A DNA stretch of 64,000 bases, taken from Friedmanniella luteola (GTDB taxonomy: Bacteria; Actinomycetota; Actinomycetes; Propionibacteriales; Propionibacteriaceae). The notes beneath the pieces are model-generated. The model saw nothing but the letters and a program-made list of their open reading frames with translations, did no database searches and had not been told where the DNA came from. Location: the NCBI RefSeq assembly GCF_900105065.1, contig NZ_LT629749.1:1302001-1366000 (forward strand), in the 5' to 3' direction. Position numbers and translations under genes: made by a program. Below are positions 21,358 through 24,206 of the stretch, one piece after another (position 1 is the first letter of the stretch; each line of letters begins with the position of its first letter).

Positions 21358-23044
<1,687 letters not shown>

Positions 23045-23078
23045 GCTCCCGCACGACGAGCGCTGTGCCGCACGTGCA

Positions 23079-23109
23079 GCAGGACGTGCGGGACGGAGTT
23101 CGCCGTGCG
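23079..23109. repeat. 31-bp direct repeat, copy 1
   Basis: This 31-bp block starting GCAGGACGTGCG and ending CGTGCG matches 24107-24137 in the same orientation with three mismatches. It is preceded by CCGCACGT, which pairs with ACGTGCGG inside it, so each copy also carries a palindrome. It ends 1 bp before the stop of the minus-strand gene. Confidence 0.65.
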
Positions 23110-24006
23110 TCAGCGAGCGTTGCGGCGGAAGGCCCGGCCGAGCCGCTCCACCAGCAGGTCGGGCCGGAGCAGGTCGGCCCAGATCCACCGGACCACCTGC
23201 CAGCCCCGGTCCCGGAGCGCGTCCTCGCGGCGCTTCTCCTCCCAGACGACGTCCTCCGGGGTCTGCCCGGGACGCAGCAGGCGGCCGTACTTCACCCGCC
23301 CGTCGAACTCCCCCAGAGTGCGGTGCTCCGGCCAGGCGAAGTCGCTCCGGCCGACCAGCCGGCCACGGTCGTCGAACACCTGGTGCTGCAGGTCGGTCGG
23401 CGGCAGGCCGCACTGGTGCAGGACGACGCGGCTGGCCGACTCACCGGCGCTCTCGCTGCGGGCGTCCATCAGCCGTACCGCGCGGCGGGCGGCGAAGACC
23501 CCGGGGCGCCCCTGCGCCTCGTCCAGGGCGGTGGCCAGCTCGCCGGACGTGAGGCCCTTCCTGAGGGCGGCATCGCCAGCCGCGACGGACTGCTGCAGCG
23601 GCAGGCTGCGCGCCAGGTCGACCACCGTGCGGGCCAGAGCGGTCACCGCTAGGTCGTCCACCTGGACGACGTCCGCAGGCCCCAGCGGGGTGACGTGGAG
23701 ATGGAGGTGGCCCTCGCGCCGGCCGGTCCCGCTGGTGCGGGTCACGTGAACCAGCCTGAGCGGGTCGCCCCAGACCGGCAGCCCGTGCACCACGGCGGCC
23801 GAGAGGTGGCTGACGACGCCGGCACCGGGGAGCGGGAGGGTGGCCCCGACCAGTTGACGGTGCCGGAGGGCGGCGTCCTCGGACACCTCGTCGGGGTCCA
23901 GGTAGGAGCCCCGCCGGAGGCGGACGAGCTCGCCGCGGCGGGCCGACTGGGCGAGCTCGTTGTGGCTGTACCCCTCAGCGAGGAGGTCGGCGGTGGTGCG
24001 TGGCAT
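23110..24006 (-). CDS. AbiEi-like N-terminal domain protein with DUF559/Vsr-like C-terminus
   Basis: A 298-residue protein of a family common in actinobacteria. Residues about 1-40 form a winged-helix/AbiEi antitoxin-like region (ELAQSARRGELVRLRRGSYLD read in parts), the middle has a transcription-regulator-like domain (VSHLSAAVVHGLPVWG), and the last 90 residues resemble a restriction-endonuclease fold: GRSDFAWPEHRTLGEFDG, with Asp and Glu-Phe-Asp-Gly placed as in DUF559/Vsr-like nucleases, then KRREDALRDRGWQVVRWIW. There is no adjacent AbiEii-type toxin. Function is unknown; the pattern suggests a DNA-binding protein with a nuclease-like tail. It is bracketed by 31-bp direct repeats. Confidence 0.75.
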   Translation of the reverse strand: MPRTTADLLAEGYSHNELAQSARRGELVRLRRGSYLDPDEVSEDAALRHRQLVGATLPLPGAGVVSHLSAAVVHGLPVWGDPLRLVHVTRTSGTGRREGHLHLHVTPLGPADVVQVDDLAVTALARTVVDLARSLPLQQSVAAGDAALRKGLTSGELATALDEAQGRPGVFAARRAVRLMDARSESAGESASRVVLHQCGLPPTDLQHQVFDDRGRLVGRSDFAWPEHRTLGEFDGRVKYGRLLRPGQTPEDVVWEEKRREDALRDRGWQVVRWIWADLLRPDLLVERLGRAFRRNAR

Positions 24007-24096
24007 GGGACGACGTCACCACGGGCGGCCTCCCCGCGGCCAGCCCTTCGGCGACATCTGTGGACAGCGGGCCACCCCGCACGCTGGACTCCTGAC

Positions 24097-24137
24097 CGCA
24101 CGCCCTGCAGGACGTGCGCGAGGGAGTTCGACGTGCG
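24097..24137. repeat. 31-bp direct repeat, copy 2, with overlapping palindrome
   Basis: 24107-24137 repeats 23079-23109 (28 of 31 identical). It overlaps a 22-bp palindrome at 24097-24118 (CGCACGCCCTG / CAGGACGTGCG, one mismatch). It lies about 100 bp upstream of the AbiEi-like start and 28 bp from the rpmB terminator. Confidence 0.65.
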
Positions 24138-24164
24138 GGAGGTCAGCAGCTGTCCGGGAACGCA

Positions 24165-24192
24165 CAAAACCCGCCTCCCGGAGGAGGCGGGT
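24165..24192 (-). terminator. Intrinsic terminator of rpmB
   Basis: Read on the minus strand, ACCCGCCTCC and GGAGGCGGGT form a perfect 10-bp stem with loop TCCG, followed by TTTTG. It lies 15 bp after the rpmB stop and is the most classical terminator in the window. Confidence 0.85.
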
Positions 24193-24206
24193 CAGGGGCG
24201 ATCAGG

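Follow-up and report, generated by a model that had tools for sequence, protein, structure and literature searches.

A small gene bracketed by two long hairpins in Friedmanniella luteola is one member of a widespread actinobacterial element with the layout palindrome, DnaA-box-like site, AbiEi-Vsr nuclease gene, palindrome. At least five genes of this kind have further copies of their palindrome dispersed through the same genome, a pattern suggesting that the enzyme is what spreads them. We consider it probable, with some reservation, that the AbiEi-Vsr protein processes the palindrome of its own element and disperses it in a REPtron-like manner, using an enzyme unrelated to RAYTs. The proposal follows from REPtron anatomy combined with a different enzyme in a genus in which Y1_Tnp was not found.

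The unit lies in the window (the whole stretch of 64,000 nucleotides analyzed here), where the original prediction saw a gene between 31-bp direct repeats. Those copies (23079-23109 and 24107-24137) do agree at 28 of 31 positions, but they are the 3' halves of long palindromes, and the CGCACG...CGTGCG palindrome noted with them exists as part of a larger hairpin. The full repeat is 62 nt long, with 76% identity between the copies (Table 1). Folding of 23041-23115 and 24070-24145 on the plus strand produced nested hairpins (z of -5.2 and -6.3), and none of 200 shuffles folded as well as either. The 31-bp pattern, left open at the three differing positions, had no other match in the window at up to three mismatches and none in 100 shuffles, and the repeat had no match among known plasmids. 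An att-like site was rejected because the repeat is half of a hairpin; an Rfam RNA was likewise rejected, with two microRNA matches that were both sub-threshold.

Table 1. Coordinates in the window of the element and of an adjacent hairpin
Feature	Position	Strand	Basis or remark
Left hairpin, imperfect nested palindrome, adjoins stop codon	23048..23109	.	Alignment, folding, own-genome copies
AbiEi-like + Vsr/I-Bth0305I-like fold protein, 298 aa, predicted nuclease	23110..24006	-	ORF, profiles, model
CTGTCCACAGAT, DnaA-box-like motif, ~60 nt 5' of start codon, conserved across elements	24056..24067	-	
Right hairpin, 5' of gene	24076..24137	.	Alignment, folding, own-genome copies
GC-rich hairpin with T run, likely rpmB terminator	24158..24203	-	Conserved in G018; outside element

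As had been read from the sequence, one open frame stands alone between the housekeeping genes for RNase J (rnj) and ribosomal protein L28 (rpmB). Junctions without the unit, which the original prediction proposed to look for, are the rule in the genus. In 16 of 20 genus genomes rnj and rpmB fell inside the fetched stretch; the window genome is the sole carrier, and all 15 other junctions are without the gene. Spacers measure 8-296 nt in 13 of these 15, and 870 and 1116 nt in the remaining two, which were scored only for absence of the gene. The closest genome, G018, represents a sister species (96% identity over the C-terminal 180 residues of RNase J). Its junction consists of rnj, a single related hairpin, and rpmB. 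This hairpin was found by direct alignment, not being among the matches of the hairpin search at E <= 0.001, and is identical to the two window hairpins in 46/64 and 46/65 columns, while these agree with each other in 49/63 columns. Because the sister junction holds just one hairpin, which aligns with either window copy, the unit was either gained, or cleanly lost with one hairpin left behind. The gene-free sister site, together with the absence of the gene from every junction but that of the window, supports the predicted cassette that can come or go. At this junction other genus members (L123, L125, and L126) have hairpins that are near-perfect and very long; those of L125 and L126 are related to hairpins of L091 and L084 in the same genomes. 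The RNase J frame of the window is itself broken at 22105-22125, where its length differs from that of G018 by one base, which reflects either a sequencing error or a real mutation.

Relatives of the protein, a multi-copy orphan family, occur in 36/40 related genomes; the source genome has 8 matches, which fall at 7 places, and up to 12 were counted per genome. We sampled 56 distinct members from the better of more than 150 listed matches. Counts were made on 53 elements of 32 genomes, among them the one in the window; the rows of L080 (with an in-frame stop), L133 (broken), and L144 (a partial match) had been dropped, as had two duplicates, L136 and L139. In 41/53 elements the 350-nt flanks share a direct repeat scoring 40 bits or more (44/53 at 35 bits or more), and the script's criterion classes 32 of those 41 repeats as palindromic. 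Controls came from one genome and elements from many. Among 303 control genes (700-1150 bp long, from 1.2 Mb of the source genome), called with a simple GC3 script and with the 812-kb and 1530-kb family members missing from the top rows, only the window gene itself reached 40 bits. Three reached 35 bits, the second of which (37.4 bits) begins like an AbiEi protein; a gene with such a start, at G000:C1 1561631-1562587, has a 20-bp exact direct repeat on both sides. A null of 599 window pairs had a median of 22 bits, with four pairs above 40 bits at 9.1-10.9 kb that are, by eye, tandem transporter-ATPase genes. Finally, the same 1.2 Mb contains 178 hairpins and only two similar same-strand pairs 100-6000 bp apart, both around family genes; a third family member, at 812 kb, was missed as a pair by this test and holds a 62-nt repeat of 73% identity in its flanks. 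Chance hairpin pairs were rejected on these nulls (window pairs, control genes, and 1.2-Mb hairpin pairs). The broken source-genome member L133, with matches in separate frames, is still flanked by its hairpin pair, and at that site G018 shows a single hairpin in a short spacer. Searches of mobile elements returned one partial match to a phage protein and five plasmid records (NZ_LR134451.1, NZ_LR134463.1, NZ_LR134465.1, NZ_CP012477.1, and NZ_AP024649.1), the latter being distant homologues on Tsukamurella and Arthrobacter plasmids.

Across the elements, palindromes are mostly 50-120 bp. The 3' hairpin usually starts 0-50 nt past the stop codon, and the 5' hairpin usually ends about 55-175 nt ahead of the start. 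The only strongly conserved sequence between the 5' hairpin and the gene is G-T-T/C-G/A-TCCACAG-A/G; we take TTGTCCACA to be the actinobacterial DnaA box. An exact TCCACAG lies upstream of 43/53 elements, most commonly near -60, versus 6/808 control genes, a set that may include family members. The first 4 kb of the contig, viewed as a possible origin, has two weaker DnaA-box-like matches only.

The hairpins themselves differ from element to element, and paralogs carry different ones. Five hairpin families recur elsewhere in their own genome and are absent or rare in the other genomes that were searched (the high counts that follow are lower bounds). The L084 hairpin has at least 38 matches at a minimum of 36 places in its own genome, G006, including the two flanking ones, and none in 19 other genus genomes. 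Similarly, the L091 hairpin has at least 60 matches at 31 or more places in G011, flanking ones included, with one match in G002 and none in 18 other genus genomes. For L143 of Nocardioides lianchengensis, 28 matches at 14 places (12 of them solo) are 89-99% identical, and four other genomes have none. The L132 hairpin recurs at five further places in 1.2 Mb of the source genome, its own. The window hairpin is a low-copy example, with two flanking and three solo copies (at 464, 852, and 1520 kb); in the genus it has two matches in G018, one weak match in G017, and none in 17 others. The original prediction had weighed its cassette against the alternative of repeats scattered through the genome with no linkage to this gene family. 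Half of that alternative was found, in the form of these three gene-free places, but the hairpin-gene link is nonetheless real, given how regularly family members carry their own flanking hairpin pair.

In three genomes, 52 of 55 rows from the hairpin search (some places counted on both strands, a few element-flanking copies among them) lie outside called genes, with only three between divergent genes; solo hairpins often sit past gene 3' ends. We read 10 of the 12 N. lianchengensis solos. All span the same 74 positions, with ends GCTGTAAC and GTTACAGC, and three are perfect palindromes. None of the 10 has a target-site duplication, the longest flank repeats being 2-4 nt (sum 24 versus a shuffled mean of 32). 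Their flanks are mostly dissimilar, and since several have a common short extension of the TGCGGCGCG, GTCCGGATAG type, the dispersed unit may exceed 74 bp. A second small motif like GTCCGGATAGCGGAC stands alongside four solos (L275, L279, L283, and L289), and the unit may accordingly be composite. The L283 hairpin was not seen in G046 (25-nt spacer) or in 150 nt read of the 154-nt spacer of G050, where both flanking genes are shared. L142, another Nocardioides element with a protein 46% identical to that of L143, carries these ends (GCTGTAACG and CGTTACAGC) on its upstream copy, with a different interior.

Some of the data count against a palindrome mover. Twelve of the 53 elements fall below 40 bits, the 10 solo sites read show no target-site duplication, and 5/7 source-genome elements have no clear dispersed copy in 1.2 Mb, a quarter of that genome (none for L131, L134, and L135; one weak match each for L130 and L133). 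Dispersal without a paired gene also counts against it: a CCTGAGCCTGTCGAAGG-type palindrome occupies at least 11 places in G000:C1 400001-1600000 (L165-L224), where no gene was seen between a pair of its copies. In G018, CCTGAGCCTGTCGAAGG-type palindromes are found at sites that carry other hairpins in the source genome.

Comparison with the sister species points to turnover of the hairpins. Opposite the source-genome solos at 464419 (window family) and 500981 (L132 family), G018 carries different hairpins, and in the 180 nt of G018 read opposite the 1520-kb solo there is nothing similar; for comparison, of 34 source-genome hairpins for which both flanks could be located in the G018 stretches, 27 are matched there. 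At the L130/L138 locus the element is present in both species, with hairpin pairs that are alike within a species and by eye different between them. L131 and L136 are 92% alike in the right flank, with different paralogs and hairpins, while the L131 cassette together with its hairpins shows 72% similarity to L137, which lies at another locus. Over 29 genus elements, protein and hairpin similarity correlate weakly (Mantel 0.32, 0/2000; with GC held, 0.21, 12/2000), which fits co-evolution.

The protein was predicted to have an antitoxin-like front and a nuclease-like end, and its modeled fold bears this out. In an AlphaFold2 model of the window protein (38 sequences, pLDDT 95.3), residues 1-181 match the AbiEi antitoxin 6y8q (Z 11.3, 168 residues, rmsd 6.5) and Rv2827c (Z 9.1, 172 residues, rmsd 4.3). 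Residues 186-298 match the catalytic domain of the homing endonuclease I-Bth0305I (Z 11.6, 97 residues, rmsd 2.7) and Vsr (Z 9.2, 106 residues, rmsd 3.7). The C-terminal part also matches mitoribosomal chains (Z 9.2-9.3) and FASTKD4 (Z 8.3), so this fold alone is no proof of a nuclease. E189, D222, E233, D235, E257, and K258 are invariant in the 38-member alignment. NCBIfam offers no consistent family for the members, DUF559 and MTES_1575 match one of the 38 each, and a sequence-profile search of solved structures gave nothing useful. Judged from the model, the usual annotation of this gene as an antitoxin gives way to the likeness of an enzyme that cuts DNA.

Such a fold also suits the main rival explanation, a homing-type element in which the gene moves, targets resident intergenic palindromes, and duplicates them on entry, the palindromes being passive and spread by other means. 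The match to a homing endonuclease catalytic domain, the related hairpin kept at the gene-free G018 junction, and the one-hairpin G018 site that faces L133 (by eye with only a CGAGGC core in common) all agree with it. We nevertheless regard homing as unlikely, as paralogs have different hairpins rather than one common target, the flanking hairpin belongs in five cases to a family dispersed in that very genome, and pairs at the L130/L138 locus agree within species and by eye differ between them. A still less probable explanation is that the hairpins are plain bidirectional terminators or insulators, intergenic hairpins being common here and their families few. The position of solos past gene 3' ends and the unrelated long hairpins at rnj-rpmB in other genus members would be expected of terminators; the near absence of similar pairs around other genes in the 1.2 Mb examined, and dispersed N. 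lianchengensis copies that end alike and show 89-99% identity, would not. Equally improbable is an orphan AbiEi antitoxin or anti-phage gene with incidental or regulatory repeats, for which speak the PADLOC AbiEi models (38/38 members) and Pfam AbiEi_4 (26/38, the window protein under the curated cut-off) and against which stand the tested window neighbors, which include no AbiEii toxin gene (RNase J, L28, FakA-like, and RecG), the extra nuclease-like domain, and repeats that are long hairpins present also far from the gene.

We therefore return to a nuclease that spreads its own palindrome. Nuclease lineages have their own palindrome families; the nuclease would probably recognize and then cut or nick its palindrome, perhaps extruded or single-stranded, and copies would thereby spread to intergenic sites, as RAYTs are thought to do with REPs. 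Recombination between the two flanking copies could excise the gene and leave one hairpin. Observation covers the anatomy and its recurrence, the dispersed private copies in five families, the predicted fold, and the sister-species junction that lacks the gene and holds one related hairpin; that the nuclease moves palindromes, what it does and on which substrate, and whether DnaA plays a part are what we infer from association. More tentatively, and with somewhat less than even confidence, we propose a new actinobacterial class of palindrome-spreading elements, in which AbiEi-Vsr nucleases would drive genome-private long hairpins to gene ends and the DnaA-box-like site would couple them to replication. 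If true, the REP/RAYT way of life would have been invented a second time, independently and through unrelated chemistry. A multi-copy orphan family that at present bears the name of an antitoxin would gain a function, many of the long hairpins between genes in high-GC actinobacteria would have a possible origin, and REP-like dispersal could be tested with an enzyme that is no relative of RAYTs. There is also a warning that genes of this family should not be counted as AbiE defense systems, as the PADLOC models would count them. In the titles and abstract openings surveyed, with few subscription papers among them, we met no description of AbiEi or DUF559 genes with flanking palindromes, which does not establish their absence from print.

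Among known systems, the dispersed copies resemble MITEs in being short, gene-free, and palindromic, with common ends at many sites; they differ from MITEs and insertion sequences in that 10 sites have no target-site duplication and the putative partner is no known transposase. The AbiEi antitoxin of type IV toxin-antitoxin systems resembles residues 1-181 in fold and through the PADLOC models, but AbiEi/AbiEii pairs are unlike the window gene, which has neighbors without a toxin gene and a fused nuclease-like domain. Likewise, the EDxHD (Vsr-like) homing endonuclease I-Bth0305I shares the catalytic-domain fold (Z 11.6 over 97 residues), whereas the N-terminal part here is different, the gene is free-standing in the chromosome between hairpins, and homing is only putative. 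The closest parallel is the REPtron. In its literature (PMC6006769, PMC3733652, PMC3116915), a RAYT/TnpA_REP nuclease gene is flanked by palindromes dispersed in the intergenic DNA of its own genome; each gene is tied to its own palindrome type, and several types per genome are possible. Correspondingly, the gene here lies between palindromes of a genome-dispersed family (five families), with an own type per gene and the possibility of several types in a genome. Differences are (i) the predicted fold, which is AbiEi plus Vsr-like and not HUH/Y1, (ii) palindromes of mostly 50-120 bp versus the 20-40 bp given for REPs (PMC3733652), (iii) the DnaA-box-like site inside the element, and (iv) the GTAG/GTGG foot, which the 74-bp palindrome of N. 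lianchengensis lacks, this being the only family whose ends are clear. A RAYT as the palindrome mover was rejected, as Y1_Tnp (PF01797) had no match in 20 genus genomes at E <= 0.001, with the control giving a signal in 5/14. Since the modeled protein is not of the HUH plus tyrosine Y1 transposase type that defines REPtrons, we do not file the element as a REPtron, though it appears to work like one.
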